Shown: positions 27,032 through 51,292 of the stretch, piece after piece
Numbering within the stretch: position 1 is the first letter of the stretch
Layout of the letters: the number at the start of each line of letters is the position of its first letter
Source of the DNA: Opitutaceae bacterium
Lineage (GTDB): Bacteria > Verrucomicrobiota > Verrucomicrobiia > Opitutales > Opitutaceae
Length of the DNA: 64,000 nucleotides
Assembly (NCBI GenBank): GCA_027482185.1
Contig: JAIXWF010000013.1
Span: 620,001 to 684,000, forward strand
Direction of reading: 5' to 3'
Translations under genes and position numbers: made by a program
Notes under the pieces: model-generated
What the model saw: the letters and a program-made list of their open reading frames with translations, nothing else
What the model was told of the DNA's origin: nothing
The model's database searches: none

Positions 27032-27036
27032 ACGCC

Positions 27037-28521
27037 ATGGCCGAAGCCGCCCAGTCCGAGTCGGGAACGCCGGGGTCCGCCGGGGCCCCGCCGTCGGGAC
27101 CCGGCGCGCTGCCGCCGGCGAATCCGAAGTACGCCTGGGCCCGGATCCCGCGGCAGGCGCCGCCGAAGCGGTCCGCGGACGAACGCGTCGGCGATTTCCG
27201 CGAAATCTATTCCAACCACGACGAGGCCGCCATCCGCGCGCAGGCGAGCCGGTGTATCCAATGTCCGAATCCGTTGTGCGCGCAGGCCTGCCCGCTTTCC
27301 AACCGGATTCCCGAGTGGCTCGCGCTCACCGCCCAGGGCCAATATCTCGAGGCCGCCGCGATTTCCCGCAGCACGAGCAACATGCCCGAGATCTGCTCGC
27401 GCGTTTGCCCGCAGGAACGGCTCTGCGAGGGCGCGTGTATCCTGAATTGCCGCACGGACGCCGTCGCGATCGGCGCCGTCGAACGTTTCATCAACGACTA
27501 CGCCTTCGCCCACGGAGCCGTGGAGGCCAACGCCGCGCCGCCGAGCGGTTTCTCCGTGGCGGTGATCGGTTCCGGTCCCGGCAGCATGGCCTGCGCGGAC
27601 CAGTTGGCGCAGTCCGGCCACGCGGTGACGGTCTTCGAATCGCAGCTCATCCCGGGCGGCCTGCTCGTGAACGGCATCCCGGCCTTCAAACTGGAGAAAC
27701 ACATCGTCGAACGCCGGATCAATTTGCTGGCCAAGCGCGGCGTCCGCTTCGAACTCGGCGTGAAGGTGGGCTGGGATGTTTCCCTCGCGCACCTGCGCCG
27801 CAATTACGACGCCGTTTTCCTCGGCGTGGGTGCCCAGCGCCCGAAGCCGCTCGACCTGCCCGGCGGCGAGCTGCGCGGCGTGTGGCCGGCGCTGCCGTTT
27901 CTGATCCAGAAGAATGTCGCTTCGCCGTTGGTCGACGGGGAGCCGATCGACGTCGCCGGCAAGCGGGTGGTGGTGTTCGGCGGCGGCGACACCGCGATGG
28001 ATTGTCTGCGGACGGCGCTCCGTTCCGGGGCGAAGGAAGCGGTCTGCGTGTACCGTCGCGACCTGGCCAACATGCCCGGCAGCCGGAAGGAATACGCCAA
28101 CGCCCTGGAGGAAGGCGCGCGGTTCGAGTTTCTCACCAATCCGACGGAGATCGTGCCCGACGGTGCCGGCGGTATCGCCGCGGTCCGCTGCGTGCGCATG
28201 CAACTCGGCGCCGCGGATGCGTCGGGGCGGCGCAAGCCGGCGGTCGTGCCGGGCTCGGAATTCACGGTGCCGGCGGAGGTGATTCTGGTGGCGTACGGGT
28301 TCGATCCGGTGCCCTTCCCGCCGACGAGCGATTTTGCCGGGCTGAAGACCGACCAATGGGGCGGCCTGAAAGTCGATGCCGACCAAATGACGAGCGAGCC
28401 CGGAGTCTTCTCCGGCGGCGATGCGTCCCGCGGCCCGAGTCTCGTGGTGCACGCCGTGCGCGACGGTCGCAAAGCCGCGGTGGGGATCGACCGTTGGCTC
28501 GCGCGCATTCCGGCGCGCTGA
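27037..28521 (+). CDS. GltD/NfnB-like NAD(P)-linked Fe-S flavoprotein
   Basis: A 494-residue oxidoreductase of the glutamate synthase small-subunit family. A Pro/Gly-rich N-terminal extension precedes the Fe-S domain with cysteines in CIQCPNPLCAQACP and CSRVCPQERLCEGAC. An FAD site (VIGSGPGSMACADQLAQSGHAVTVFE, about residues 170-195) and an NAD(P) site (VVVFGGGDTAMDCL) follow. The C-terminal FAD motif is GVFSGGDASRGPSLVVHAVRDG. No large glutamate synthase subunit (gltB) is nearby. The close link to nifJ suggests electron transfer between ferredoxin and NAD(P), as in NfnB-type proteins, more than glutamate synthesis (inference). Confidence 0.88.
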   Translation: MAEAAQSESGTPGSAGAPPSGPGALPPANPKYAWARIPRQAPPKRSADERVGDFREIYSNHDEAAIRAQASRCIQCPNPLCAQACPLSNRIPEWLALTAQGQYLEAAAISRSTSNMPEICSRVCPQERLCEGACILNCRTDAVAIGAVERFINDYAFAHGAVEANAAPPSGFSVAVIGSGPGSMACADQLAQSGHAVTVFESQLIPGGLLVNGIPAFKLEKHIVERRINLLAKRGVRFELGVKVGWDVSLAHLRRNYDAVFLGVGAQRPKPLDLPGGELRGVWPALPFLIQKNVASPLVDGEPIDVAGKRVVVFGGGDTAMDCLRTALRSGAKEAVCVYRRDLANMPGSRKEYANALEEGARFEFLTNPTEIVPDGAGGIAAVRCVRMQLGAADASGRRKPAVVPGSEFTVPAEVILVAYGFDPVPFPPTSDFAGLKTDQWGGLKVDADQMTSEPGVFSGGDASRGPSLVVHAVRDGRKAAVGIDRWLARIPAR

Positions 28522-37076: not shown

Positions 37077-38546
37077 TCAGGAAATCGCCTGCAGCACGGC
37101 GGACGGGAAGAGGCCCAGCACCAAGATCAGTCCGGCGGCGACCAACAGCGCGGTGGCGGCGGCGAGGGGGACTTTGATCGGGGCGGCGTCGCTGCGGCCG
37201 GGGACGACCACGGCGTTTTTCAGCACGAGCAGGTAATAGTACAGGCCGACGGCGCTCATCGCGATCGCGAAGACCGAGATCCATCCGGCCCAGCCGGCGA
37301 GGCCGTTGAGTTTCAGGGCGGCGGCGAAGACGGCGAACTTGCCGAAGAAACCAGCGAGCGGCGGGATGCCCGCGAGCGAGAGCAAGAAGACCACGAGGCA
37401 GAAGGCCAGGAGCGGCGAACGTTGGCGCAGGCCGGCCAAATCGGCGAGCGAGCCGCCGATGCCGGCGGCGTCGAGCACCGCGATCACGCCGAACGCACCG
37501 ACCGTCGCGAGGCCGTAGGTGCCGGCATAGTACACGAGCGGGGCCGGGCCGAATTTCCCGGCGGTGATGACGCCGAGCAGCAGCACGCCGGCGTGGGCGA
37601 TGGCGGAATAGGCGAGGATGCGGCGGACGTTGCTCTGGGCGAGGGCGCCGAGGTTGCCGACCAGCAGCGAAAGCACGGCGACGAGCGCGACGGCCGGTAC
37701 CCAGCCGGGTACGGCGTTGAAGGTGGCGATGTTGCCGGCGGCCGGACCGACGCCGCTCCACAGCAGCCGCGTGAACATCACGAGGCCGGCGAGCTTGGAA
37801 CCGGAGGCGATCAGCGCCGCGGAAATCGGCGGTGCGCCTTGGTACACGTCGGGCGCCCAGAGATGGAAGGGCGCGGCGGCGGCTTTGAAACCGAAGGCGA
37901 CCACCGTCATGAGCACCGCGACGAGCAGCAACGGCGTCATGGCCTGGACGCTCAGTTGCCGGGCGATCTCGGGCAATGCGATCGAACCGGTGAGGCCGTA
38001 GAGCAGGCTGAACCCGAAGAGCAGAAACGCGGCGGAAATGCCGCCGAGCAGGAAATATTTCAGCGCCGCTTCGGCGGAGTCGGGGCGCGAACGGTCGAAG
38101 CCGGCCAGAATATAGAGCGAGAGGCTCGCGAGCTCGAGGGCCACGAAGGCGACGAGCAACTGTTGGACGACCGCCATCAGCGTGAAACCCGTGGTCGCGA
38201 AGAGAATCACCGCGACGTACTCGGCCGGTTGCCGGACCTTGGTCACTCCGGGCAGCAGCGCGAGTGTCAGTGCCGTGAGCACCAGCACCCCGAGCCGTGT
38301 CGCCATTCCGAGCGAATCGAGGAGGAAGACCCCGCCGAAGACTTCGCCGTCCACGCGCGCGTCGTAGGTGTGGTAGACCGCAGCCAGGACCGCCAGCAGG
38401 CCGAGCACCGTCGCGTACACGGTGCGCTGGGCAAGATCGTGGCGGCGGCCGACGACGAGATCGAAGCCGAGGACGACGAGCGCGCCCAGCACGAGCGAGG
38501 CCTCGGGCAAGAGGGCGTGGAGCAAAGACAGGTAGTTCAGAGTCAC
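37077..38546 (-). CDS. nuoN: Complex I subunit N
   Basis: A 489-residue antiporter-like membrane subunit of NADH:quinone-oxidoreductase-type complex I. It is hydrophobic throughout. The family hallmarks are VALELASLSLYIL (conserved Glu), FKAAAAPFHLWAPDVYQGAPPISAALIASGSKLAG (Lys before PFH and Lys in SKLAG) and SLAGIPPLAGFFGKF (Lys in the GFFGK motif in place of the Glu found in M and L, as usual for N). It is the last gene of the operon. Its ATG overlaps the end of the second nuoM by 4 bp. Confidence 0.96.
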   Translation of the reverse strand: MTLNYLSLLHALLPEASLVLGALVVLGFDLVVGRRHDLAQRTVYATVLGLLAVLAAVYHTYDARVDGEVFGGVFLLDSLGMATRLGVLVLTALTLALLPGVTKVRQPAEYVAVILFATTGFTLMAVVQQLLVAFVALELASLSLYILAGFDRSRPDSAEAALKYFLLGGISAAFLLFGFSLLYGLTGSIALPEIARQLSVQAMTPLLLVAVLMTVVAFGFKAAAAPFHLWAPDVYQGAPPISAALIASGSKLAGLVMFTRLLWSGVGPAAGNIATFNAVPGWVPAVALVAVLSLLVGNLGALAQSNVRRILAYSAIAHAGVLLLGVITAGKFGPAPLVYYAGTYGLATVGAFGVIAVLDAAGIGGSLADLAGLRQRSPLLAFCLVVFLLSLAGIPPLAGFFGKFAVFAAALKLNGLAGWAGWISVFAIAMSAVGLYYYLLVLKNAVVVPGRSDAAPIKVPLAAATALLVAAGLILVLGLFPSAVLQAIS

Positions 38547-40057
38547 GGCTGGCCTCCTTTCAGCACCGCCTGGAAGAGCGGCGAACGCAGGGCCGGGACG
38601 ATCCAGTCGAGCAGGACGTCCGGTTTCAGGCCGATGTAGACAGTGGTGGCAATCAGGAGCAGGGCGCCGGCTTTTTCCGGCCAGGTGATCGGCGCGAAGT
38701 CATGGTGCGGATCGTGGGACGCGGCCGGCGCCGGCGCGGCGGCTTCGGTCGATCCGAAGAACGAGACCTGCACGGCGCGAAGGGTGAAGGCGGCGGCGAT
38801 CAGAATGCCGAGGCCGGCGAAGCCCGCCCACAGCGGCGAGGTTTTCCAGGTACCGATCAAGATGGTGAGCTCGGCGGGGAATCCGCTGAAGCCGGGCATG
38901 CCCATCGAGGCGAGACCGGCCAGGACGAAGGTGAGCGCCGCGAAGGGCAGCGTCTTGTGCAGGGGCAATCTCCGCAGGTCCGAGAATTGCCGCGTGTGCG
39001 TGCGTTCGTAGACCATGCGGCCGACGACGGCGAAGAGCAGTCCGGCGATCACGCCGTGCGAGAACATCTGCAGCACTGCGCCGCTCACGGCCTGCGCGTT
39101 CGCGGCGGCGAGTCCGAGGATGACAAAGCCCATGTGGCTCACGCTCGAGTAGCCGATGACGAACTTGAAGTCCTCCTGCACGAGCGCGATGCAGCCGGCG
39201 TAGAGAATGCCGATGATGGCGAGAATCGCGATGACGGGTTGCCAGTAGACGAAGCCGGCGGGGAAGAGCGGCATCGCCACCCGCAAACAACCATAGGCGC
39301 CGAGTTTCATGACGACGCCGGCGAGCAGCATCGAGGCGGCGGTGGGCGCGGCGACGTGCCCGGTCGGGGCCCAGGTGTGGAAGGGAAACATGCCGGCGAG
39401 GACGGCGAAGCCCGTGAAGACCAGGGCGAAGATCCCCTGCTGGACTCCCGGCGAAAGTTGCGCGCCGGCGGCGGCGAGGTCGGCGACGGCGAAGCTGTTC
39501 GCGCCGCTGGCGGCGTAGGCCCAGAGCAGGCCGGCGAGGACGAGGGCGCTGCCCGCGAACGAATACAGCACCAGTTTCATCGCGCCGTACTCGCGGTTGG
39601 TGGAACCCCAGATCGCGATCAGGAAGTATTTCGGGACGATCGCGATCTCGTAGAACACGAAGAAGACGAAGGCGTCCGCGCTGAGAAAAACGCCGTACAC
39701 GCCGCCGATCAGCGCAAGATAGAGGGCGAAGAATTCGCCGGTGCGCTCCGTGATGTTCCAGGAAAACAGCACGCCCGCGACCGCGGCGATACCCGTGAGC
39801 ACGATCAACGTGAGGCTGATGCCGTCGACGGCGAGGTGATAGCGGATGCCGTACTCCGCGATCCAGGGCACGTTGACCAACGTCTGCAGCCCGGGTCCGG
39901 GCTTGAACGCCGCGGCGGCGACGAGGGCCAGGGCGAGGCCGCCGAGGGCGGTGGCGAGGGCCACGGCGCGGGCGACGGACGCGGCGCGGTTGCCCGCCAG
40001 CAGCGCGAGCGCGGCGCCGGCGAACGACACGTAGATGGTCCAGGGAAGCGCGTTCAT
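38543..40057 (-). CDS. nuoM: Complex I subunit M, second, divergent copy (NuoM2)
   Basis: A 504-residue antiporter-like subunit. The family motifs are FYEIAIVPKYFLIAIWG (Glu137), FPFHTWAPTGHVAAPT, VVMKLGAYG (Lys251) and GMPGFSGFPAELTIL (Glu). The lysine normally found seven residues before the PFH histidine (AVKxP in canonical NuoM) is Leu220 here (FAVLAGMFPFH, codon 39398-39400). The sequence is clearly different from its upstream neighbour, so this is an old, specialised paralogue and not a recent duplicate. It overlaps both neighbours by ATGA, which predicts equal expression. Confidence 0.94.
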   Translation of the reverse strand: MNALPWTIYVSFAGAALALLAGNRAASVARAVALATALGGLALALVAAAAFKPGPGLQTLVNVPWIAEYGIRYHLAVDGISLTLIVLTGIAAVAGVLFSWNITERTGEFFALYLALIGGVYGVFLSADAFVFFVFYEIAIVPKYFLIAIWGSTNREYGAMKLVLYSFAGSALVLAGLLWAYAASGANSFAVADLAAAGAQLSPGVQQGIFALVFTGFAVLAGMFPFHTWAPTGHVAAPTAASMLLAGVVMKLGAYGCLRVAMPLFPAGFVYWQPVIAILAIIGILYAGCIALVQEDFKFVIGYSSVSHMGFVILGLAAANAQAVSGAVLQMFSHGVIAGLLFAVVGRMVYERTHTRQFSDLRRLPLHKTLPFAALTFVLAGLASMGMPGFSGFPAELTILIGTWKTSPLWAGFAGLGILIAAAFTLRAVQVSFFGSTEAAAPAPAASHDPHHDFAPITWPEKAGALLLIATTVYIGLKPDVLLDWIVPALRSPLFQAVLKGGQP

Positions 40058-41589
40058 GGCAGCACGAGTTGTCCGGCCCAGGCGGAGACGAGCGGGTTGA
40101 CGAGACCGGCGAGCAGTTGCGGCAGCAGGCCGAGGATGATCATCAAGGCGACCAGCGGGACGAGGACGGCGTATTCGAGGCCGCGGACGTCGGGGAAACC
40201 GGCGAGCGTCGCGCCGGCTTTGGGGCCGTGAAAGACGCGTTGCCAGAAGGTGAGGAGGAAGATCGCGGTCGCGAGGAGGCCGAAGCAGGCGACGGCGGCG
40301 GCCCAAGGCGCGAGGCCGAAGACGCCGCGGAAGATCAGGAACTCGCCTACGAAACCGTTGAGTCCGGGCAGGCCGAGGGAGGAGAAGAGCGCGATGCCTG
40401 TCAGGCCGGCGAAGATCGGGGCGGCGGTGCGGACGCCGCCGAAGTCGCCGATCCCGCGTTTCCCGCCGCTGCGGGCCTCGAGGAGGCCGACGGCGTAGAA
40501 GAGGGCGGCGGCGGAAAGACCGTGGTTGAAGACCTGGAGCAGCGCGCCGCTCAAGGCGGAGGCGGCGGCTTCGGCGGCCGGCTTGGGACCGGCCGCTGAG
40601 GCGACGGCGAAGAGAGCGAGCAGGCAGTAGCTCAGATGGTTGAGCGACGAGTAGGCGATCATCCGCTTGAGGTCGGTCTGCCGCAGCGCGGCGTAGGCGC
40701 CGAAGACGACGCCGCCGAGGGCGAGCCAGAGCAGCGGCGTGGCGACCGCGTGGAGCTGGGCGGGAAAGATCGGCCACAGGAGCCGGAGGAAACCGTAGAC
40801 GCCCATCTTCGACATCACGCCGGTGAGAAACATCGAGACCGGCGCCGGGGCTTCGGCGTAGGCCGAAGGCAGCCACGTGTGGAAGGGCCAGAGCGGCACT
40901 TTAACCGCGAGGCCGAGCAACACGCCGAGGAAAACAAACGTGGCCGCGGGCGAACCCACGGGCCCGAGCTTGGCGGCGAGGGTGCCATCGCGGGCCAGTT
41001 GCGCGAGCTGCAGGAAATCGAGCGTGCCGGTCGCGACGAACAGGGCGGCGAAGCCGACGAGGAGAAACGCGCTGCCGCCCATCGTGTAGACAAAGAACTG
41101 ATACGCCGCGCGGCCGGCGCCGGGGCCGCCCCACAGCTTGATGAGGAAGAAGGCCGGCACGAGGCTCAGTTCCCAGAAGAGGAACCAGTGCACGAAATCG
41201 AGGGCGAGGAAAACGCCGAGGGCCGCGCCTTGCAGGCCGAGGAAGAGGGCGGCGAAGAGCCGCGCGTTCTCGGCAATCCGCCACGAGGCGATCAGCGCGA
41301 GCGGGGAAACGATGCCGGTGAGCAGCACGAGCAGCAGGCTCATGCCGTCGAGCCCGAGGTAATAGTGGACGTTGAGGGCGCCGATCCAGACGTGGCGTTC
41401 GACGAATTGCGGACCGGTGACGGCCGGATCGAAATGCCGCAGCGCGAAGAGACCGAAGGCCAAGGTCGAGAGGCTCAGGCCGAGGGAAAGCGAACGGACC
41501 GTGCCGGGTTGGGCTTGGCGCAGCAGGCCGAGCAGGGCGGCGCCGGCGATCGGCACGAGCACGATGAGGGAGAGGAGCGGAGCGTTCAT
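40054..41589 (-). CDS. nuoM: Complex I subunit M, canonical copy (NuoM1)
   Basis: A 511-residue proton-pumping antiporter-like subunit. All expected charged residues of the half-channels are visible: Glu140 in WELSLVPAFFLI, Lys230 in AVKVPLWPFHTWLP, Lys261 in MSKMGVYGFLR, and Glu in LPGLNGFVGEF. It ends close to its successor with a 4-bp ATGA overlap and begins 4 bp within the nuoL end. Together with NuoM2 and NuoN it implies three consecutive antiporter-type subunits next to NuoL. Confidence 0.95.
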   Translation of the reverse strand: MNAPLLSLIVLVPIAGAALLGLLRQAQPGTVRSLSLGLSLSTLAFGLFALRHFDPAVTGPQFVERHVWIGALNVHYYLGLDGMSLLLVLLTGIVSPLALIASWRIAENARLFAALFLGLQGAALGVFLALDFVHWFLFWELSLVPAFFLIKLWGGPGAGRAAYQFFVYTMGGSAFLLVGFAALFVATGTLDFLQLAQLARDGTLAAKLGPVGSPAATFVFLGVLLGLAVKVPLWPFHTWLPSAYAEAPAPVSMFLTGVMSKMGVYGFLRLLWPIFPAQLHAVATPLLWLALGGVVFGAYAALRQTDLKRMIAYSSLNHLSYCLLALFAVASAAGPKPAAEAAASALSGALLQVFNHGLSAAALFYAVGLLEARSGGKRGIGDFGGVRTAAPIFAGLTGIALFSSLGLPGLNGFVGEFLIFRGVFGLAPWAAAVACFGLLATAIFLLTFWQRVFHGPKAGATLAGFPDVRGLEYAVLVPLVALMIILGLLPQLLAGLVNPLVSAWAGQLVLP

Positions 41590-43601
41590 CGGCCACCTCC
41601 CAGCATCACCACGAGAACAATCACGACGAAGCCGAGGCCGACGGCGCGGAGATAACCGTGGGCATCGCCGGTCTGGGCCTTGGAGTAGGAATCGCCGCCG
41701 GAGCGGAGACCGCGGCTGGCGGCGTCGAAGCCGCCGTTGAGCACATCTTCATCGGTCTCGCGATGCACGACGCCGGCAAATTCGCCGAGGCGCGTGAGGA
41801 GGCGGATCGCGCCGCCCCAGACGTAGCGGTCGAGGGCATCGGCCAGGGCCGCGGCGCCGGCGTTGAGCTTGAAGACAGTGGCGGCGTAGAAGGCGTCGAA
41901 CCCGAGGCGGTCGCCGAGGGCGGCCCAGACGCCGGGGGCGCGGACCTCGAGGGGATCGGGCGCGGTGGCGGAGGTGCGGGCGTTGCGGCCGTAGATCGCC
42001 CAGCCGATGCCGAGCCCGAAGGCCACGAGCACGATGGACAACACCATGAGTCCGGCGCCGCCGGCGTCGGCCTTGAAGGTCGGGTCGAGCGTGCGTTGCA
42101 GCCAGGGCCAGTAGGGCGTGCCGAGGAAGCCGAGGAGAATCGCGCAGAGCGCGAGCAGCACGAGCGGGCCGGTCATGACGGCGCTATTTTCATGCGCGTG
42201 TTCCGCGGCGTGGCTGCGCGGGCGGCCGAAGAAGGCCTGCATCACGAGGCGCGTCATGTAGAACGCCGTGAGCACCACGGCCACGAGGGCGATGTAGAAG
42301 GGCAGATGCGAGACCGACCAACCGTGCGCGGCGTGGAGGATGGCTTCCTTGCTCCAGAAACCGGAGAAGAGAAACGGCACGCCGGCGAGGGCCATGGTGC
42401 CGATCGCGAAAGTGATGAACGTGACCTTCATCGGGCCGCGCAGACCGCCGAGTTGGCGGATGTCCTGCTCGTGGTGCGCGGCGTGGATGACGGAGCCGGC
42501 ACCGAGGAAGAGCAGGGCTTTGAAAAACGCGTGCGTCAGCAGATGGAAAATCGCGGCAACCCAGGAACCGACGCCGAGGGCCAGCATCATGTAGCCGAGC
42601 TGGGAGACGGTGGAGAAGGCGAGGATGCGCTTGAGGTCGTTCTGGGCGACGGCGATGACGGCGCCCAGCAAGGCGGTGATGGCGCCGATGAAGGCGACGA
42701 CGCTGAGCGCGTGGACCGGGACGGCGGCGAGCGCCTGGTCGGCGGCCATGAGCGGATAGACCCGGGCGATCAGGAAAACACCGGCGGCCACCATCGTGGC
42801 AGCGTGGATCAGGGCCGAGACGGGCGTCGGGCCTTCCATGGCGTCGGGCAACCAGACGTGCAGCGGGAACTGGCCGGATTTGCCGACTGCGCCGCAGAGG
42901 ATCAGCAAGCCGATGGCGGTCGAAACCGCGAGACCGCCGGCGGTCACTTGGCCGGCGAGCGAAGCGAGGGCGGCGGATTCGAGCACGCCCTTGCCGCCGT
43001 CGAAGAAGAGCAACGAGCCGGTGGCGTCGTAGAGCCACAGCATGCCGAGCAGCAGGCCGAGATCGCCGATGCGCGTCGTGATGAAGGCCTTCTTGGCGGC
43101 GGCGGCGGCCTCGGGTTTGTGGAACCAGAAACCGATCAGGAGGTAGGAGGCGACGCCGACGAGTTCCCAGCAGATGAAGAGGAGCAGGAGACTGTTGGCG
43201 ACCAGCAACCCGAGCATCGCGGCGGCGAAGAGGCTCAGGAAACAGAAGAAGCGGGTGAAGTTGGCATCTTCATGCATGTAGCCGGTGCTGAAGATGAAGA
43301 TCAGCAGACCGACAAACGTGACCATCGTGCACATCAGCGCGGTGAGCGGATCGAGGAGGAAACCGAGCCGCACGGTGCCGGCACCGAGATCGAACCAGGC
43401 GAAATTGTGGACGAGGTGCCGCGAGGGATCCGCGAGGGCGCCGACCAAGGCGCCGCAGGAAAGCAGAAAGGCGCCGGCGAGGGCGACGAGGGCGGCGCCG
43501 GCGGCGAGCTTTTTGCCGCCGCGGGGCGTCAGGGCGCCGATCGCCGCGGCGAGCAGCGGCAGCGCGGGGATGAGCCAGAGTTGGGAGGCGGAGAGACTCA
43601 T
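41586..43601 (-). CDS. nuoL: Complex I subunit L with extended C-terminal lateral region
   Basis: A 671-residue subunit, longer than the roughly 610 residues of the E. coli protein. The core shows WELVGVASYLLIGFW, GAVGKSGQFPLHVWLPDAMEGPTPVSALIHAATMV (Lys and His of the pump) and FSTVSQLGYMMLALGVGS. The C-terminal part at residues about 568-645 (FDAFY to QTG) corresponds to the lateral helix. It looks some 25-30 residues longer than I recall for E. coli NuoL and contains NGGFDAASRGLRSGGDS. A last membrane helix (AVGLGFVVIVLVVMLGG) follows. It starts 7 bp after nuoK. Confidence 0.95.
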   Translation of the reverse strand: MSLSASQLWLIPALPLLAAAIGALTPRGGKKLAAGAALVALAGAFLLSCGALVGALADPSRHLVHNFAWFDLGAGTVRLGFLLDPLTALMCTMVTFVGLLIFIFSTGYMHEDANFTRFFCFLSLFAAAMLGLLVANSLLLLFICWELVGVASYLLIGFWFHKPEAAAAAKKAFITTRIGDLGLLLGMLWLYDATGSLLFFDGGKGVLESAALASLAGQVTAGGLAVSTAIGLLILCGAVGKSGQFPLHVWLPDAMEGPTPVSALIHAATMVAAGVFLIARVYPLMAADQALAAVPVHALSVVAFIGAITALLGAVIAVAQNDLKRILAFSTVSQLGYMMLALGVGSWVAAIFHLLTHAFFKALLFLGAGSVIHAAHHEQDIRQLGGLRGPMKVTFITFAIGTMALAGVPFLFSGFWSKEAILHAAHGWSVSHLPFYIALVAVVLTAFYMTRLVMQAFFGRPRSHAAEHAHENSAVMTGPLVLLALCAILLGFLGTPYWPWLQRTLDPTFKADAGGAGLMVLSIVLVAFGLGIGWAIYGRNARTSATAPDPLEVRAPGVWAALGDRLGFDAFYAATVFKLNAGAAALADALDRYVWGGAIRLLTRLGEFAGVVHRETDEDVLNGGFDAASRGLRSGGDSYSKAQTGDAHGYLRAVGLGFVVIVLVVMLGGGR

Positions 43602-43608
43602 GGCGGGT

Positions 43609-43926
43609 TCAGCCCTTGAGTTGGTTGGCGTCCTGCAGCCGGATGCTGCGGTGGCGGCGGTAGACGGCGATGACGAGCGCGAGACCGACGGCGGCCTCGG
43701 CGGCGGCGACGGCGATCGCGAAGACGACGAAGATCACGCCGGTGCCGGGGGCGGTCGGCGGACCGTAGCGCCAGAAGGCGATGAAGTTGAGATTCGCCGC
43801 GTTGAGCATCAGCTCGACACCGAGGAGGACGAGAATGGTGTTGCTGCGGGCGAGGGCGCCGATGAGCCCGATGCAGAAGAGGGCGCCGGAAAACAGCAGG
43901 CAGAGGTGCAGGGGCGAATAGCTCAC
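43609..43926 (-). CDS. nuoK: Complex I subunit K
   Basis: A 105-residue protein with three hydrophobic helices, the normal size. It carries the two conserved glutamates of the E-channel: one in LLGVELMLNAANLNFIAF and one in AVAAAEAAVGLALVIA. Its ATG overlaps the nuoJ stop by 4 bp. Confidence 0.96.
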   Translation of the reverse strand: MSYSPLHLCLLFSGALFCIGLIGALARSNTILVLLGVELMLNAANLNFIAFWRYGPPTAPGTGVIFVVFAIAVAAAEAAVGLALVIAVYRRHRSIRLQDANQLKG

Positions 43927-44450
43927 GGTGAATCCTCCGGTTTGCGTTCGGCGGCGTCGGCGCGGTCGCCGGCGGCGATGACCACGGCGCCGAGCAGCGC
44001 GACGGTCAGCAGGACGCCGATGATGAGCAGGGCGGCGGCGTGCGGGCCCATGAGCTGCACGCCGAGTTCCTTGACCGAAAGGGAGGGCCGCGCGCCGGCG
44101 GCCGGGGCGCCGAGGGGCGAGCTGATGATGGCGCCGAAGATAACGCCGAGGACGGCGCCGCCGGTGAGCAGAGCGGCGATGCCGCGGGCCGGGGAATCGA
44201 TGGCGACGGAGATGTCGTCGCGGGAACGGCGCGTCAGCAGGACGGCGAACAGCACGACCATCGAAACGGCACCCACGTAGACGAGCACCTGGGCGAAGGC
44301 GACGAACTCGGCGCCGGCCCAGAGGTAGAAAGCGGCGATGCCGGCCCAGCTGGCGATGAGCAGAAGGGCGCTGTGGATGAGGTTGCGCAGCGCCAGGGCC
44401 ACGGCGGCGGTGGCGAGCGTCAGGCCGGCGATGAGAATTAGGGGAATCAT
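43923..44450 (-). CDS. nuoJ: Complex I subunit J
   Basis: A 175-residue membrane subunit with five hydrophobic segments. AGAEFVAFAQVLVYVGAVSMVVLFAVLL is the conserved helix 3 region with its pi-bulge. The C-terminal tail is charged (GDRADAAERKPEDSP). It is separated from nuoH by a 103-bp palindromic insert, unlike the tight packing elsewhere in the operon. Confidence 0.95.
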   Translation of the reverse strand: MIPLILIAGLTLATAAVALALRNLIHSALLLIASWAGIAAFYLWAGAEFVAFAQVLVYVGAVSMVVLFAVLLTRRSRDDISVAIDSPARGIAALLTGGAVLGVIFGAIISSPLGAPAAGARPSLSVKELGVQLMGPHAAALLIIGVLLTVALLGAVVIAAGDRADAAERKPEDSP

Positions 44451-44553
44451 TGCGGATCGCGGACCGCGGATTGCGAATTGAGAAACGCCGTCACGGAGTC
44501 CGCGGCCCGAGCCGGGCCGGCGATCCGCGATTCGAAATCCGAAATCCGCAATT
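44451..44553. repeat. Palindromic insert between nuoH and nuoJ
   Basis: One arm (from 44451) reads TGCGGATCGCGG then CGCGGATTGCGAATTG. The other reads GATCCGCGATTCG then AAATCCGAAATCCGCAATTT, roughly the reverse complement. Roughly 10-bp GCGGATTxxG units recur within each arm. It fills the whole intergenic space. The same motif family fills the nuoI-nuoD gap. Confidence 0.75.
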
Positions 44554-45789
44554 TCATGTGGCGTAGCGGTAGGTGCGCGGGGCGACGCCGGCGCTGAGCC
44601 GGCGGCCGAGCAGCGTGAAAGGCACGAGGACGAGGGCGAGGGCGACGGCCCAGCGGACGAACTGCAGGGGGCCGGACCAGCCCGAGGTGAGCGACCAGAA
44701 GGCGGCGGTGCCGAGATTGATCAGGGCGAGCGGGACGAGGAACTTCCACGCGAAGCGCGTGAGTTGGTCGATGCGCAGGCGCGGGAAGGTGGCGCGGATC
44801 CAGATGAAGACGAGCAGCAGCGAGAGAAGCTTCACGCCGAACCAGACGTAGGACGGGATGAATTCGAGGAAGGGCAGCGGCGCCTGCCAGCCGCCGAGGA
44901 AGAGCGTCACGCCCATGCCGCTCAGCGCGCACATGCCGAAGTACTCCGCCATGAAGAAGAGGGCGTATTTGAAACCGGAATACTCGGTGAGGTGGCCGGC
45001 GATGAGTTCGCTTTCCGCTTCCGGCAAGTCGAAGGGGGAGCGGTTGGATTCCGCCAGGGCCGAGATGAAGAAGATGATGAAGCCGGCGAAACCCCAGGGG
45101 GTGAAGACGTGCCACTGCGGCAGGAACCCGTAGCGCCAGCCGGCCTGGGCCTCGACGATGGCGGGGAGGGCGAGGGAGCCGGCGAGCATGACGGCGGGGA
45201 CGACGGAGAGGAGCAGCGGCAGCTCGTAGCTGATCAGCTGGGCGAGGGCGCGCATGGCCGCGAGCAGCGAGTACTTGTTGCGGCTGGCCCAGCCGGCCAT
45301 GAAGACGGCGAGTTCGGTGGCGGCGCCGGCGGCGAAGAAGTAGAGGACGGCGGCGTCGAATTCGAGGAGGACGAGATGGCGGCCGTAGGGGATGACGCCG
45401 AGCGTCATGATCGAGAACGCGAGCAGCGCGACCGGGGCGAGGAAGTGCAGGACCTTGTCGGCGCCGTCGGGAATGACGTCTTCCTTGGTGATGGCCTTGA
45501 CGCCGTCGGCGAAGGGTTGGGCGAGCCCGAAGAAACGGAGGTTGATGAACGGGATCGGCGTGCGGTTGGGGCCGGGGCGATTCTGGATGCGGCCGAGGAT
45601 TTTCCGTTCCGCCAAGGTGAGGTAGGCGAAGAGCAGGCCGATGACGGCGAGCAAGGTGCCGACGCCGACGAGGCTGTTGACGAGCCAGCGCAGCGGCTCG
45701 GGGAGCCAGCCGGTGGCGAGGTCGCGCAGGGTGACGGGGAGGGTTTCGAGGACGGAACCCGTGGTCGCGAAGAGAAGCGCGGCGTTCAT
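44554..45789 (-). CDS. nuoH: Complex I subunit H
   Basis: A 411-residue quinone-channel subunit, longer than E. coli NuoH (about 325) because of an N-terminal extension and expanded loops. Signatures are ERKILGRIQNRPGPNR, FADGVKAITKEDVIP, and the acidic loop AESNRSPFDLPEAESELIAGHLTEYSGFKYALFFMAEY that lines the quinone site. Its ATG overlaps the nuoI stop by 4 bp. In most bacteria nuoH precedes nuoI; here the order is reversed. Confidence 0.96.
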   Translation of the reverse strand: MNAALLFATTGSVLETLPVTLRDLATGWLPEPLRWLVNSLVGVGTLLAVIGLLFAYLTLAERKILGRIQNRPGPNRTPIPFINLRFFGLAQPFADGVKAITKEDVIPDGADKVLHFLAPVALLAFSIMTLGVIPYGRHLVLLEFDAAVLYFFAAGAATELAVFMAGWASRNKYSLLAAMRALAQLISYELPLLLSVVPAVMLAGSLALPAIVEAQAGWRYGFLPQWHVFTPWGFAGFIIFFISALAESNRSPFDLPEAESELIAGHLTEYSGFKYALFFMAEYFGMCALSGMGVTLFLGGWQAPLPFLEFIPSYVWFGVKLLSLLLVFIWIRATFPRLRIDQLTRFAWKFLVPLALINLGTAAFWSLTSGWSGPLQFVRWAVALALVLVPFTLLGRRLSAGVAPRTYRYAT

Positions 45790-46466
45790 GAGGCGGCGGG
45801 CGGGTTGGCCGGCGGCGGGACCTGCGGGGCCGGAGCGGCGGGTTTGGCGGCCGCAGGCGCGGCCGGCGCGGCGGCCGGCGCAGCGGGTTTCGCGGCGGCG
45901 GCCGCTTTGGCGGCGGCGGCGGCCTTGGCTTTTTCCTCGGCGGCTTTGCGGTCGGCGGCGAGACGGGCGTCGACCTCGGCGGCCTCCGTCGGATGGATCT
46001 GGTGGTAGTAGCTGTTGGGTTTCGCGAGTTGCTCGCGGTTCAGCAGCAGGGCCTCGAAGCGGGTGGTCGTGGCGATCTCGAAGACCTGGTCCATCTTGAT
46101 CGCGTCAAAGGGGCAGACCTCGACGCAGATCTGGCAGCTCATGCAGACGGAGGTATCGATCGCGAAGATGGCGGGATAGATCTGCGGTTTGCCGGCGGCG
46201 TCGGGCTTCTTGTCTTTGCTCTTCTCGATGTAGATGCACTGCGGCGGGCATTCCTTTTCGCAGATTTGGCAGGCAACGCAGCGGAGCGTGCCCATCGGAT
46301 CGGTCGCGTTTTCGGAAACGAGAAACGGGAAATTGCGGTAGGCTTCCGGCAACGCCGGCTTCACTTCCGGGTACTCGACGGTCGTGTACCGCGCGGGATC
46401 GTGGAAGCTCCCGACGAAGTTTTTCGCCGTGACCGCGAGACCTTGGAGTAAGCCGGAACCGAGCAT
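45786..46466 (-). CDS. nuoI: Complex I subunit I (two 4Fe-4S clusters)
   Basis: A 226-residue protein. Two cluster motifs, CVACQICEKECPPQC and CMSCQICVEVCPFDA, hold N6a and N6b, the last clusters before N2 in NuoB. The N-terminus is amphipathic (LLQGLAVTAKNFVGSF). After about residue 170 there is a Lys/Ala/Pro-only tail of about 55 residues that is not typical of the family. It is separated from nuoD by a 128-bp palindromic insert. Confidence 0.95.
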   Translation of the reverse strand: MLGSGLLQGLAVTAKNFVGSFHDPARYTTVEYPEVKPALPEAYRNFPFLVSENATDPMGTLRCVACQICEKECPPQCIYIEKSKDKKPDAAGKPQIYPAIFAIDTSVCMSCQICVEVCPFDAIKMDQVFEIATTTRFEALLLNREQLAKPNSYYHQIHPTEAAEVDARLAADRKAAEEKAKAAAAAKAAAAAKPAAPAAAPAAPAAAKPAAPAPQVPPPANPPAAS

Positions 46467-46594
46467 GGGATGAATTGCGAATTGCGGATTGCGGAATGCG
46501 GATTGGGAGAAGCGGAAGATGTTTGGCGCGTGGGCGGGGGAGCCGGGGCTTGGGTCAAATTCGCAATCCGCAATTCGAGATCCGCATTTATCGT
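46467..46594. repeat. Palindromic insert between nuoD and nuoI
   Basis: The left arm is GAATTGCGAATTGCGG followed by ATTGCGGAATGCGG. The right arm is TTCGCAATCCGCAATTCG followed by AGATCCGCATTT. They are near reverse complements built of 7-10 bp GCGGATT/GCGAATT units. The loop is GC-rich. It is the same family as 44451-44553. Confidence 0.75.
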
Positions 46595-47758
46595 TCAGCG
46601 GTCGACTTCGCCGAGGACGATGTCGACGGAGCCGAGGATGATGACGGCGTCGGCGACCGTTTGGCCGAGGCACATGTCCTCGAGCACGGTGAGGTTGATG
46701 AACGACGGCGGCCGCACGCGGTAGCGCAAGGGGTTCGGGCTGCCGTCGCTCACGAGGTAGAAACCGATTTCGCCCTTCGGGCCCTCGATGCGACCGTAGG
46801 CCTCGCCGGCCTTGGGGCGGAAGCCGCGGAGCTTGGCCTTGGGATCCATGATTGGGCCGCCGGGGAGGCCGGCGAGCGCCTGCTCGAGGATCTTGATCGA
46901 TTCGCGCATCTCGAGGACGCGGACCATGTAGCGGTCGTAGACATCGCCGTGGGCGCCGAGGGGGACGCGGAATTGGAAACGCGGATACACGCCGTAGGCG
47001 TCGGACTTGCGGAGGTCGGAGGCGACGCCGGTGGCGCGGAGCATCGGGCCGGTGACGCCGGCGTTGATCGCGAGCGCGGAGGAAAGCACGCCGACGCCCT
47101 GGGTGCGCGCCATGATGATCTCGTTGCCGGTGAGCAGGGCCTCGAATTCGTCGAGGAAGGCGCCGTAGTTGCCGACGAGGGTGCGGGTGGCGTCGACCCA
47201 GGCGGGCGTGGGATCGACGCGGCAGCCGCCGAAGCGCTGGTAGTTGCACATCATCCGGGAGCCGCTGAGCGACTCGAAGAGATCGAGGATCTTTTCGCGT
47301 TCCCGGAACGCGTACATCAGGGGCGTGCCGCTGCAGCCGCAGTCCTGCATGAGGAAGCCGGCGAGGCAGGTGTGGTTGAGCAGGCGGGTGAGCTCGGCGA
47401 GGATGACGCGGACGTACTCCGCGCGCTCGGGGACGGGCTGGCCGGCGAGTTTCTCGACCGCGATGGCGTAGGCCCAATTGTTGGTCATCGCCGAGAGGTA
47501 ATCGAGCCGGTCGGTGTACGGCATCGAGGCGAGGTAGGAGACGGTCTCGCCGAGTTTCTCGTGGTTGCGGTGGAGGTAGCCGAAGACGGGCTTGAGTTTC
47601 ACGATCCGCTCGCCGTCGAGCGTGACGATCATGCGGAAGACGCCGTGGGTCGACGGGTGGTGCGGCCCCATGGAGACCTCGAGCAGGTCGCCGTGGAAGG
47701 CGTCGTGGACGGCGCGGACGTTGGCGCCGCCGGGGCTGCCGAGCAGTTCGGGGTTCAT
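46595..47758 (-). CDS. nuoD: Complex I subunit D (49-kDa type)
   Basis: A 387-residue peripheral subunit forming the quinone-reducing site with NuoB. It has [14 protein letters not shown] near residue 30 (the quinone His region), [26 protein letters not shown], and the C-terminal [13 protein letters not shown]. Length is typical for an independent NuoD (about 390-410). The ATG overlaps the nuoC stop by 4 bp. Five residues before the normal end it already has the GEVDR terminus, so the gene is intact. Confidence 0.97.
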
Positions 47759-48435
47759 CCGGCGGGGGGCGGCGGGACCGCGGTCGGGGCCGGCGCGGCG
47801 GGCGCGGGGGCGGGATAGTGGACCTTGGCTTTTTCGAGCACGGCGCCGTGGGGCGTCGGTTCCCATTCGTAGTCGTCGGGCTCGACGTAGTCCTTGCGCA
47901 TCGGGAAATCCTTGAAGCCGTCCCACATCAGAATGCGGCGGAGATCGGGATGGCCGGTGAAGGTGACGCCGAAGAGATCGAAGACCTCGCGTTCCTGGAA
48001 TTCGCAGGCGCGCCAGACGGGCGTGAGCGAAGGGACGGCGACGGCGTCGGTGCGGTTGCCCGTGCGCAGGCGGAGGATGACGGGACCGTGGCCGTGGGTG
48101 ACGGAGTAGAGGTGGTAGACGACCTCGAGGCAGCCGGGCTGGAGGCGCTTGGTCTTGGTTTCGACGACCTTGGCGGGACCGCCGGCGGGATCGGGGACGG
48201 TGGACTTCGTCGTTTCGACGATCTCTTTCTCCGGCCAATCGATGCCGGTGACGTTGGAGCATTGGTCGAGCCGGAGCGCGGGATCGTCGCGGAGGAAACG
48301 GGCGATCGCGGCGGCGTGTTCGTGATCGAGCAGGAGCCCGTGCTGGGCGGCGGGACCGGGATTGGCGACGACGGCAAGCTGCGCGCGGGGAAACTGGGCG
48401 AGCAGACGGTCGCGGATCTGTTCGATGGATTCCAT
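47755..48435 (-). CDS. nuoC: Complex I subunit C (30-kDa type)
   Basis: A 226-residue peripheral subunit. The 30-kDa signature is seen as [31 protein letters not shown], and [11 protein letters not shown] lies near the C-terminus. A Pro/Ala tail of about 20 residues follows. A stretch [25 protein letters not shown] near the middle looks like a family-variable loop. It is separate from NuoD (no C-D fusion). Confidence 0.95.
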
Positions 48436-48443
48436 GGGCGCGG

Positions 48444-49097
48444 TCAGCCTTTTTCGGAGCGCACGATCGTCGGTGCGGTCCAGACGGCGGGGTTGTGCGG
48501 CGGCTCGAGGTCGTGGGCGCCGAATTCAGGCACCGGATACTCGCCGGCGTCGGCGGTTTGCAGGTGGCGCGGGGCGTCGGGGCCCTTGATTTGGAAGCCT
48601 TTTATTTTTTCCTGCAGCTGCACGAGCCCGTGGAGGAGGGCCTCGGGGCGCGGCGGGCAGCCGGGGATGTAGATGTCGACGGGGATGAAACGGTCGATGC
48701 CCTTGAGGACATTGTAGCCCTGCTTGAACGGGCCGCCGGAGATCGCGCAGGCGCCCATGGCGATGCAGTACTTGGGCTCGGGCATCTGGTTCCAGAGGCG
48801 GATGACCTGCGGGGCCATCTTCTTGGTGACGGTGCCGGAAACGATGAGCAGGTCGGCTTGGCGCGGCGACGGCCGGAAGACCTCGGAGCCGAAGCGCGCG
48901 ATGTCGAACTTGGCCATCGAGGCGGCGATCATCTCGATCGCGCAGCAGGCGAGGCCGAAGTTGAGGGGCCAGACGGAGTGGCTGCAGCCCCAGGTGTAGA
49001 GTTCCTGCAGGCTGGTGAGGAGAATGCCGTGCCGGCGCAACTCGGCGCGTTCGGCATCGGTGATCGCAGGGGCGGCGGAGGTGGGGGCGTCGCTCAT
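48444..49097 (-). CDS. nuoB: Complex I subunit B (cluster N2)
   Basis: A 217-residue peripheral subunit that holds the terminal 4Fe-4S cluster N2. The ligands are visible: the CC pair in [10 protein letters not shown], Cys in [10 protein letters not shown] and Cys in [13 protein letters not shown]. Conserved [23 protein letters not shown] follows the first motif. The C-terminal 40 residues are an extension ending IVRSEKG. It is eight bases upstream of nuoC. Confidence 0.97.
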
Positions 49098-49104
49098 GGT
49101 CGGG

Positions 49105-49476
49105 TTATTTCCATTCGAGGTGGCCGCGGTGCCAGGCCCAGACGAGGCCCTCGGCGAGGAGCAGGAGGAACACGAGCATCGCGAAGAGCGCGCCGGCGGG
49201 GAGATCGGTGAACGCGACCGCGAAGGGCAGGAGGAAAAGCACCTCGACGTCGAAAATCAGGAAGAGGATCGCGTAGAGGTAGTAGTGGGCCTTGAACTGG
49301 ATCCACGCGTCGCCGGTCGGGGCCACGCCGCATTCGTAAACGGCGTTCTTGATCGGGCCCGGTTTGCGCGGCTGGAAGAAGATCACCCAGAGCCGTTGCA
49401 CCCCCAGCAGCAGCAGGGGAAACGCGACCGCCACGGCGCCGAACAGGGCAAGGAACGCGTAGGATTGCGGGTTCAT
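49105..49476 (-). CDS. nuoA: Complex I subunit A, first gene of the operon
   Basis: A 123-residue membrane subunit with three helices, the usual size. The conserved segment is [45 protein letters not shown], with the loop Cys and the Glu/Asp pair of helix 2. The ATG at 49476 was chosen; an upstream in-frame start would add sequence with no family match. The operon promoter is expected in 49477-49718. Confidence 0.96.
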
Positions 49477-49718: not shown

Positions 49719-50564
49719 TTATCGCGGCGCGGTGTCGACGGCGAGGGCACCGAACGTTGCGAGCGTATCGTCGGGCTGGGCGACGGCGGCGCCGACGGCG
49801 GGGTGCTCGGCGCAGAACGCGGCGATCTCCGCCGTCTCCATCACAAAAAACGCGGTGGACAACGCATCCGCCTGCGCGGCCGTCGGCGCGAGGGCCCAGA
49901 CGCGCCCGTTGCGGCCGGCTTTCGCGCCCGTGCGCGGGTTCACGAGATGCGCGCCTTTGACCGCGGTGCCGGAGCCGCTAAGCGAGGTGCCCAGCAGCGG
50001 GACTTCGCGGTAACCGGCGCCGTCGCCGAGCGCCGCGGGCCAGCCGGTGGCGGTGTCGTCGCAATGCCCGAAGGCGAACACGCTGCTGCCGCCGGAGTTG
50101 AGGTGCGCGGCAGGGATTTCCCATTCGGCCAGCAGGGCGGCGACGCGGTCGAGGGCGTAGCCCTTGCCCACGGCGCCGAGATCGAGCCGCAGGCGGTCGG
50201 TGAGCGAGGTAAGGGTGAACGTCGCGGGATCGAGCGTGAACGGCGGCAAGTCCGGCGCGAGGTCCGCCGGGCGCACCGACGCGTACGCGGGATCGAAGGC
50301 CCGGCGTGTTGCGACCGACACATCTGCTGCCACGAGCAGGCATTCGAAGGCGTCCTCCGTCAGCAGCATCGACGCGCCGCGGGCGAGGCCGTTCGCGCGG
50401 GAGATTTCGCTGCCGTCCTGGAAACGGCTCAGCTCGCGTTCCAGTTGGTCGACCAGACGCCAGGCGGCCGTCGCCGCGTGCCGCGCGTAGTCGGGATTCT
50501 CGTGGGCGAGGGTGAGTTCGAAGAACGTCGTCATCGCCTCGTGCTGGAAGGAGGTGAGCGTCAT
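49719..50564 (-). CDS. apbE: FAD:protein FMN transferase
   Basis: A 281-residue ApbE-family enzyme that attaches FMN covalently to Thr or Ser of target proteins such as NqrB/C and RnfG/D. Motifs are GSEISRANG, DLGAVGKGYALDRVAALL (about 140-160, the Gly-Lys-Gly nucleotide loop), HLNSGGSSVFAFG and the C-terminal LVNPRTGAKAGR with Asp/Ser in QADALSTAFFVM (metal site). It has no lipoprotein signal, so it is likely cytoplasmic. The ATG overlaps the GT2 stop by 4 bp. No Nqr or Rnf target is in the window. Confidence 0.92.
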   Translation of the reverse strand: MTLTSFQHEAMTTFFELTLAHENPDYARHAATAAWRLVDQLERELSRFQDGSEISRANGLARGASMLLTEDAFECLLVAADVSVATRRAFDPAYASVRPADLAPDLPPFTLDPATFTLTSLTDRLRLDLGAVGKGYALDRVAALLAEWEIPAAHLNSGGSSVFAFGHCDDTATGWPAALGDGAGYREVPLLGTSLSGSGTAVKGAHLVNPRTGAKAGRNGRVWALAPTAAQADALSTAFFVMETAEIAAFCAEHPAVGAAVAQPDDTLATFGALAVDTAPR

Positions 50565-51292
50565 CGCGGTCCCCCGGCGCGGGGCCGTTGATGCGGGCGG
50601 CGCATGAGCTGCCACTTCAGCTTCAACATCGCCGCGGCCGGGCGCCACCAGAGCCGGCCGAGGCCGTACTTGGCTTCGCCGTGGCGGCGTGCGTGGTGCC
50701 GCACGGGCAATTCGCCGACGCGAAAGCCGGCGGCGACGGCGAGCGCTGGGATGAAGCTTTGCATCAGCTCCATCGGGAAAAACGCCTCGCGCACCTCGTG
50801 CCGCATGACGCGCAGCTGGCAACCGGCGTCGTGGACGCCGTCGCGCAGCACGGCGCCGCGGACGACGTTGGCAATCCGCGACATAATGCGCCTCAAGGTC
50901 GAATCGTGGCGGTCGACGCGCCAGCCGCAGGCGAGGTCGACCGCGCCTTTTTCCACGAGCGCGAGCAGGGCGGGAAAATCGCGGGGGTCGTTCTGGCCGT
51001 CGCCGTCCATCATCAGGAGGAAACGCCCGCGGGCGGCACGCAGGCCCGTGAGCACGGCCGTGGCCTGGCCGGAATTGCGTTCGAGCCGGAGCTCGCGGCA
51101 CTCGGGCCAACGGGCGGCCGCGGCGGCGATTTCCTCGCCGGTCGCGTCGGTGCTGCCATCGTTGACGAGAATGATCTCGAAGGGCCGGCCGAGCGCCCGC
51201 AGCACCGCGCCGGCGCCGTCGACGAGAGGCAAAATGTTGCCGGCTTCGTTGTAGACGGGGACGACGAGCGAGAGCTGGGGAACGGGGGTCAC
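50561..51292 (-). CDS. Family 2 glycosyltransferase, DPM1/dolichol-phosphate-mannose-synthase-like
   Basis: A 243-residue cytoplasmic GT-A enzyme. LSLVVPVYNEAGNILPLVDGA starts the nucleotide fold, and LVNDGSTDATGEEI and LLMMDGDGQNDPRDF carry the D-G-S and D-x-D metal motifs. The end is basic (RRPHQRPRAGGPR). The likely reaction is transfer of a sugar from a nucleotide donor to a polyprenyl phosphate. The start is a GTG that overlaps the preceding gene's TGA by 4 bp, and the stop overlaps the apbE ATG. Confidence 0.9.
   Translation of the reverse strand: MTPVPQLSLVVPVYNEAGNILPLVDGAGAVLRALGRPFEIILVNDGSTDATGEEIAAAAARWPECRELRLERNSGQATAVLTGLRAARGRFLLMMDGDGQNDPRDFPALLALVEKGAVDLACGWRVDRHDSTLRRIMSRIANVVRGAVLRDGVHDAGCQLRVMRHEVREAFFPMELMQSFIPALAVAAGFRVGELPVRHHARRHGEAKYGLGRLWWRPAAAMLKLKWQLMRRPHQRPRAGGPR

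Follow-up and report, generated by a model that had tools for sequence, protein, structure and literature searches.

A twelve-gene complex I operon with two nuoM genes in an Opitutaceae bacterium: a 2M complex and its probable ferredoxin:quinone oxidoreductase role

Between positions 37077 and 49476 of a 64,000-nucleotide stretch from an Opitutaceae bacterium (assembly GCA_027482185.1, contig JAIXWF010000013.1, positions 620,001 to 684,000; hereafter the window), the minus strand carries a complex I operon of twelve genes in the order nuoA-B-C-D-I-H-J-K-L-M1-M2-N (Table 1). Matches to Pfam and NCBIfam profiles (the NCBIfam scan alone for nuoM2 and nuoN) identified the subunits and bore out the order and the ends given to these same-strand genes in an initial annotation. 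The annotation also described the genes as mostly overlapping by 4 bp. This is correct for six of the eleven junctions; the other five are gaps of 7, 8, 128 (D-I), 103 (H-J) and 7 bp. Its statement that NADH-module genes are missing holds, neither nuoE nor nuoF nor nuoG being found in the window cluster.

Table 1. Genes of the window's complex I operon and the nifJ gene of the same window
Gene	Product	Coordinates	Strand	Evidence
nuoA	123 aa	49105..49476	-	PF00507, E 1.7e-31
nuoB	217 aa	48444..49097	-	PF01058; NF011394 above cut-off; N2 cluster motif CCxxE kept
nuoC	226 aa, not fused to nuoD	47755..48435	-	PF00329, E 3.7e-34
nuoD	387 aa	46595..47758	-	PF00346, E 1.8e-88; GPHHPSTHG and PYTDRLDY kept
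nuoI	226 aa	45786..46466	-	PF12838/PF00037; best NCBIfam match TIGR01971 (NuoI), below cut-off
nuoH	411 aa	44554..45789	-	PF00146, E 3.6e-106
nuoJ	175 aa	43923..44450	-	PF00499, E 1.3e-26
nuoK	105 aa	43609..43926	-	PF00420, E 6.2e-26
nuoL	671 aa, lengthened lateral helix	41586..43601	-	TIGR01974 above cut-off
nuoM1	511 aa, adjoins nuoL	40054..41589	-	TIGR01972, 449 bits (cut-off 264)
nuoM2	504 aa, adjoins nuoN	38543..40057	-	TIGR01972, 435 bits (cut-off 264)
nuoN	489 aa	37077..38546	-	TIGR01770 above cut-off
nifJ	pyruvate:ferredoxin oxidoreductase, 1202 aa	22434..26042	+	TIGR02176, 1721 bits (cut-off 911)

The NuoI protein combines two 4Fe-4S cysteine motifs with a long tail rich in Ala and Pro, and its gene precedes nuoH. 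The motifs of NuoI and NuoB (N2) have redox roles, and those of NuoD belong to the quinone site. Core subunits A-D and H-N together with the NuoI cluster motifs, and no NADH module, make up the gene set of ferredoxin-linked complexes of the 11-subunit type; the NuoE, NuoF and NuoG that mark an NADH:quinone oxidoreductase are not encoded with the window operon.

Two nuoM genes between nuoL and nuoN in one cluster are the mark of the 2M type of complex I, the defining paper of which is reportedly that of Chadwick et al. (2018). A second mark lies in the lateral helix of NuoL. Its span between two aligned anchors measures 82 residues in the window and 82-83 in all 60 2M NuoL kept for the count, as against 57-59 in all 17 ordinary NuoL kept and 53 in E. 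coli. Dropped from the count were ten of 70 2M-like rows (fragments or odd lengths; L160 represents a third complex, described below) and three of 20 ordinary-like rows (fragment L144 and two rows of L159, also a third complex). The window helix is therefore about 25 residues longer than the ordinary one, in line with the approximately 26 residues of 2M complexes. Modelled with AlphaFold2 on an alignment of 34 sequences (33 of the 42 listed NuoL plus the window), the window NuoL contains one continuous helix from residue 565 to 642 (78 residues). The model has a mean pLDDT (predicted local distance difference test) of 84 and a pTM (predicted template modelling score) of 0.82, with helix confidence dropping from about 80 to about 45 toward the end. 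The 25 extra residues would amount to some 37 angstroms of helix, roughly one further antiporter-like subunit. PMC9040806 describes a 26-residue insertion in the NuoL helix as a hallmark, and a lengthened NuoL is likewise reported in PMC6606698.

The same cluster recurs in the best 80 related loci of a species-level genome collection, mostly Verrucomicrobiota and Acidobacteriota by title. The gene for NuoI precedes nuoH in all 44 loci holding both, and the exact twelve-gene order is found in 27 of the 29 that hold all twelve genes; the exceptions are L126, with nuoA after nuoN, and L071, which is cut at the edge before nuoA and holds a second cluster. This second cluster also accounts for the one departure from the L-M1-M2 order among 68 loci with all three genes. 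Two loci with Spartobacteria titles differ in orientation: part of the 2M cluster, nuoA-B-C in L118 and nuoA-B-C-D in L129, is inverted relative to nuoH-N.

M1 and M2 are 36% identical. In a tree of 91 NuoM (from 34 of the 67 loci that carry M1 and M2, counting the window), M2 forms one group (support 100) that joins the ordinary NuoM of relatives (support 99). M1 also forms one group, with a support of 5 in this tree and of 99 in a 44-row tree made of the window, 15 loci and nine of 19 ordinary rows, hand-chosen. Each of the two groups spans Verrucomicrobiota and Acidobacteriota, and a constraint placing M1 and M2 together was rejected on the 44-row tree (p-AU 0.0144). Both trees have long branches and an unsure root and are confined to NuoM from outside Nitrospira and Chloroflexi. 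Judged by their sequences, M1 and M2 are old paralogues of separate lineages, a recent duplication being excluded. The initial annotation had named a recent local duplication of nuoM as one of two findings that would overturn its proposal. Although nuoM1 and nuoM2 are adjacent, the likelihood of such an event, without new function, is next to nil: identity is low, the copies fall into separate groups in both trees, each group crosses two phyla, and NuoL has a correspondingly longer helix. Since M2 is nearer to ordinary NuoM, M1, the copy adjoining NuoL, is likelier to be the insertion. From its extended NuoL helix and its pair of ancient NuoM, we conclude that the window operon encodes a 2M complex I.

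Among relatives of the window genome, M2 was detected in 29 of 57 (E at or below 1.7e-148; the next-best rows begin at 2.1e-89), namely in 25 of the 27 congeneric genomes, three of ten from other genera of the family and one of 20 from elsewhere in the order. When genomes were drawn evenly across the phylum, 20 of 387 had a match at 1e-92. The 2M complex is thus common in the window's genus and patchy outside it. Five records labelled Klebsiella pneumoniae or Akkermansia muciniphila (L085, L089, L114, L115, L122) contain Verrucomicrobiota-like 2M operons; four of them (all but L114) group with Verrucomicrobiota 2M in the 91-row tree, and the five look like mislabelled bins.

Complexes with a second NuoM are published for Nitrospira, Chloroflexi and an acidobacterium, in agreement with the mention of other phyla in the initial annotation. 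The system, which the annotation ranked as the strongest candidate for an unusual one in the window, is therefore not unusual in kind. Acidobacterium capsulatum (PMC11636273) resembles the window in that nuoM is doubled in a second complex I beside an ordinary nuoA-N, and acidobacterial loci (e.g., L095 and L117, by title) have the same A-B-C-D-I-H-J-K-L-M1-M2-N order. The A. capsulatum complex is treated as an NADH dehydrogenase in that paper, and the window's kin are Verrucomicrobiota. The Nitrospira 2M complex of "clade 3" (PMC6606698, PMC12342949) shares the two NuoM, the lengthened NuoL and the separate nuoC and nuoD; it likewise lacks parts of the NADH module, with ferredoxin as the proposed partner. 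It differs in that reverse operation, for carbon fixation, has been proposed, the likeness being one of published description rather than of compared sequences. In Chloroflexi (PMC7117926), the second NuoM also sits between NuoL and NuoN, but nuoBCDI lie apart and nuoCD are fused. The cyanobacterial and chloroplast NDH-1 and the 11-subunit Fpo-like complexes have three antiporter-like subunits, unlike the window, and a match in fold to them is undiagnostic. More than three such subunits occur in the rhizobial "green" complex I and in the five-pump Manganitrophaceae complex (PMC9040806), the latter sharing the helix insertion as well. In these complexes two MrpD-like subunits replace NuoL, whereas the window keeps NuoL and doubles NuoM. 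Consistent with this difference, the window NuoL scores above the TIGR01974 and NF005141 cut-offs, and both NuoM score above that of TIGR01972, so the complex is not of the green type. These papers describe 2M complexes from genes and transcripts, an extra proton per electron pair being a hypothesis there; a 2M-bearing acidobacterium has been cultivated (PMC11636273). Within an open-licence library, no paper on two NuoM had Verrucomicrobiota in its title (Chadwick et al. may list Verrucomicrobia), and none joined Opitutaceae, complex I and ferredoxin. Relative to the literature surveyed, what is new is the neighbourhood of ferredoxin-reducing enzymes around 2M operons and a pattern of lysines in TM7 and TM5 (transmembrane helices 7 and 5) of NuoM.

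The assembly of the window genome (6.43 Mb, 24 contigs, 98% complete) contains seven proteins matching PF00361, four in the window operon and three on contig C5. The latter belong to an ordinary nuoB-C-D-E-F-G-H-I-J-K-L-M-N run with one NuoM, which also holds the genome's single NuoF (PF01512) and single NuoE (PF01257), the two subunits covered by the genome-wide search for the NADH module. A second nuoA, on contig C22 apart from this run (G000:C22:127085-127384), presumably serves the ordinary complex. The check suggested by the initial annotation, a genome search for nuoE/F/G and a second complex I, thus ended, for nuoE and nuoF, with both genes in a separate ordinary complex that can use them, not with an NADH module lacking a complex of its own. 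Because all seven PF00361 proteins sit in the two complexes I, Ech, Mbh and Mrp are not expected in this genome. No RnfC exceeded the cut-off in it. As there is no further PF00361 protein either, the 2M complex remains as the sole energy-conserving ferredoxin oxidase of a kind that such searches can detect.

The presence of one NuoE and one NuoF in the genome raises the question of whether NuoEFG might be borrowed from the ordinary complex, making the 2M complex an NADH:quinone oxidoreductase with a fourth pump. The two proteins could indeed be shared, and the 2M complex of A. capsulatum is called an NADH dehydrogenase (PMC11636273). However, in BLAST searches of the best 80 loci, many of which are cut by contig ends (29 have all twelve genes), the 2M cluster had no neighbouring E, F or G, save one NuoE-like match in L101. 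Judged by redox potentials, electron transfer from NADH to menaquinone would, moreover, hardly be able to drive five protons per electron pair; transfer from ferredoxin to menaquinone could. We regard the borrowing of NuoEFG as improbable.

The explanation that we consider probable is that the 2M complex works as a ferredoxin:quinone oxidoreductase. KorAB-type and NifJ 2-oxoacid:ferredoxin oxidoreductases would make reduced ferredoxin, which would act as electron donor to the NuoI and NuoB 4Fe-4S clusters. The NuoB/NuoD/NuoH site would reduce quinone, and the energy released would drive ion pumping by the four antiporter-like subunits N, M2, M1 and L, all of them spanned by the lengthened lateral helix of NuoL. 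Electron flow would be in the forward direction and the fourth antiporter-like subunit would pump. Ferredoxin, the link put forward in the initial annotation, appears from gene content and context to be the most likely donor and the best supported one.

Evidence on the donor comes from the distribution of PF01855, the family of 2-oxoacid:ferredoxin oxidoreductases. A protein above the cut-off was present in 20 of 20 2M-positive genomes and in nine of 20 2M-negative members of the same family (Fisher 1.5e-4), the latter being those listed in the draw of the phylum rather than a random sample. Among the relatives, a partly overlapping sample, 28 of 29 genomes with 2M and 17 of 28 without had a PF01855 match of any strength (p 0.001). 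The distance between M2 and a PF01855 gene is at most 20 kb in eight of the 29 relatives and in four of 17 further genomes, 12 of 46 altogether. By comparison, ordinary NuoM has no such gene at this distance in any of 45 control rows, hand-picked at one per genome, or of the 43 left after removal of G023 and G043, which look like third complexes (Fisher 3.6e-4 against 8/29). Widening the distance to 30 kb brings the control count to 2/45, including one doubtful row. When genomes whose 2M contig also carries a third complex are excluded, the 20-kb figures are 5/25 and 0/43 (p 0.005).

In five genomes (G018, G022, G003, G023, G331), a ferredoxin gene (fdx, PF13370), korA and korB lie downstream of nuoN in the same orientation. 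In G417, fdx-korAB is divergent from the 2M operon, with NifJ at the other end; in L113, fdx-korA lies upstream of the 2M operon and NifJ on the other side. In G003 (L171, 12751-17062), some 4.6 kb and four predicted genes separate nuoN from ferredoxin-korAB; by eye, one of these encodes a TIR-like protein and two resemble a toxin-antitoxin pair. NifJ itself occurs in the flanks of six of the 80 titled 2M loci, two of them acidobacterial by title, as against about 0.26 expected on the assumption of 2.5 such genes per 5 Mb. It was found beside 2M in the window, L061, L066, L098, L113, L117, L129, G114, G417 and G067, and the stretches read there show no third complex. Gene context thereby supplies a concrete donor candidate, 2-oxoacid:ferredoxin oxidoreductases being near both kinds of EFG-free complex I (see below) and near none of the 43 ordinary NuoM within 20 kb.

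Several observations weigh against this interpretation. The window nifJ, 11 kb from the nuo operon, is real, as the initial annotation had it, and the enzyme is a possible source of reduced ferredoxin; taken alone it is weak evidence, NifJ being present in 14 of 29 2M-positive and 11 of 28 2M-negative genomes. These counts show no association and do not support NifJ as a dedicated partner of 2M. In the window genome, nifJ is on the strand opposite to the operon and the fdx-korAB cassette is on another contig, C16 (L176), unlinked to 2M. In 34 of the 46 genomes, many of which have short contigs, no linkage of PF01855 to 2M was detected, and the co-occurrence and linkage counts are uncorrected for kinship, one genus supplying many of the genomes. 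Finally, 18 of 20 2M genomes keep the E1 component of 2-oxoglutarate dehydrogenase, so these genomes do not rely on the ferredoxin route alone. The idea that a ferredoxin branch replaces 2-oxoglutarate dehydrogenase is not supported by this count or by the presence of E1 above cut-off in 38 of the 40 genomes examined.

A further complication arises from a third complex I without EFG that occurs in relatives: L159/L169 (G018), L160/L170 (G022), L187 (G331), L192 (G029), L193 (G016), L194 (G056) and positions 14417-20428 of L071. In L159 it has two MrpD-like subunits (NF006236 and NF009310 above cut-off) in place of NuoL, a replacement also reported for the rhizobial green complex I. In G018, G022 and G331, the 2M operon, fdx, korA, korB and the third complex follow one another on one strand, and in G029 and G016 fdx-korAB adjoins the third complex with no 2M operon in the stretch read. 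PF01855 lies within 20 kb in six of the 14 NuoM rows taken as third complexes, which were kept apart from the ordinary control and six of which were read in detail. Since fdx-korAB also adjoins the third complex, the cassette may belong to that complex or to both EFG-free complexes; it is in any case not private to 2M. In G018, a NifJ gene is on the same contig as both complexes.

The same 2M complex might also run in the opposite direction, proton-motive force driving electrons from quinol to ferredoxin for reductive carboxylation or other low-potential reactions. Reverse flow is the published hypothesis for the Nitrospira complex (PMC6606698, PMC12342949). Four pumps would supply the push. 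Pyruvate:ferredoxin oxidoreductase and its 2-oxoacid counterpart (KOR) can work in either direction. On the other hand, the window genome gave no match to NifD, which removes nitrogenase as a sink for such electrons, and the near-universal 2-oxoglutarate dehydrogenase E1 fits an oxidative cycle. Reverse operation seems unlikely to us.

Whether all four antiporter-like subunits pump was considered from their proton-path residues, at the sites of the E. coli NuoM residues in TM5, TM7, TM8 and TM12. NuoM rows of 430-640 residues were counted (68 M1, 80 M2 and 19 ordinary NuoM). The TM5 Glu, TM8 Lys and TM12 Glu are kept in every one of them. The TM7 Lys is kept in 68/68 M1 and replaced by Leu in 80/80 M2 and 19/19 ordinary NuoM; the replacement is Leu220 in the window M2, and L008 (3967-5487) is an ordinary example. 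All 80 M2 share a private lysine in TM5 (Lys143), at a site occupied by Thr in ordinary NuoM and mostly by Ala in M1. The window NuoN keeps the equivalents of E. coli E133, K217, K247 and K395, and the window NuoL keeps its known proton-path residues.

Because the TM7 lysine is missing, pumping by M2 is uncertain, which counts against the scheme with four working pumps. M2 (or M1) could be a structural spacer, so that three of the four antiporter-like subunits translocate; this would be compatible with ferredoxin as donor. The invariant Leu of M2 speaks for a spacer. Against it, the ordinary single NuoM of relatives carries the same Leu in every case, and M2 keeps the other three charged residues in addition to its private TM5 lysine. 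A spacer thus appears rather unlikely. The absence of the TM7 lysine from M2 and the ordinary NuoM of relatives, together with the TM5 lysine found in M2 only, constitutes a natural experiment on the charges that a pump needs.

A more far-reaching proposal can be made, tentatively and with more doubt than confidence. The 2M complex of Verrucomicrobiota and Acidobacteriota would be a forward-running ferredoxin:quinone oxidase that moves at least five protons per electron pair and forms a ferredoxin respiratory branch beside the NADH branch. In relatives, one fdx-KorAB cassette would feed two four-antiporter, EFG-free complexes, the 2M and the green-like one, and M2 would conduct via its TM5 Lys instead of the TM7 Lys.

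Other features of the window were noted around these genes. Downstream of nifJ, at 26383-28521 on the plus strand, lies a gene for a 712-aa protein whose C-terminal part is GltD-like (TIGR01318 above cut-off), with about 250 N-terminal residues without assignment; at a guess, it may link to ferredoxin or NADPH. A gene for an ApbE-type FMN transferase (49719-51110, minus strand) is located 243 bp upstream of nuoA in the same orientation, and ApbE-related reading frames are also near 2M in L059, L169 and L182. Covalent attachment of flavin to a 2M subunit by this neighbour was considered and set aside, no match to a simple motif being found. Both large gaps of the operon (44451-44553 and 46467-46594) contain short repeats of the type GCGGATTGCGAATT. 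Allowing up to two mismatches, the window has nine matches to this repeat where 0.73 are expected, and seven of the nine are inside the two gaps.

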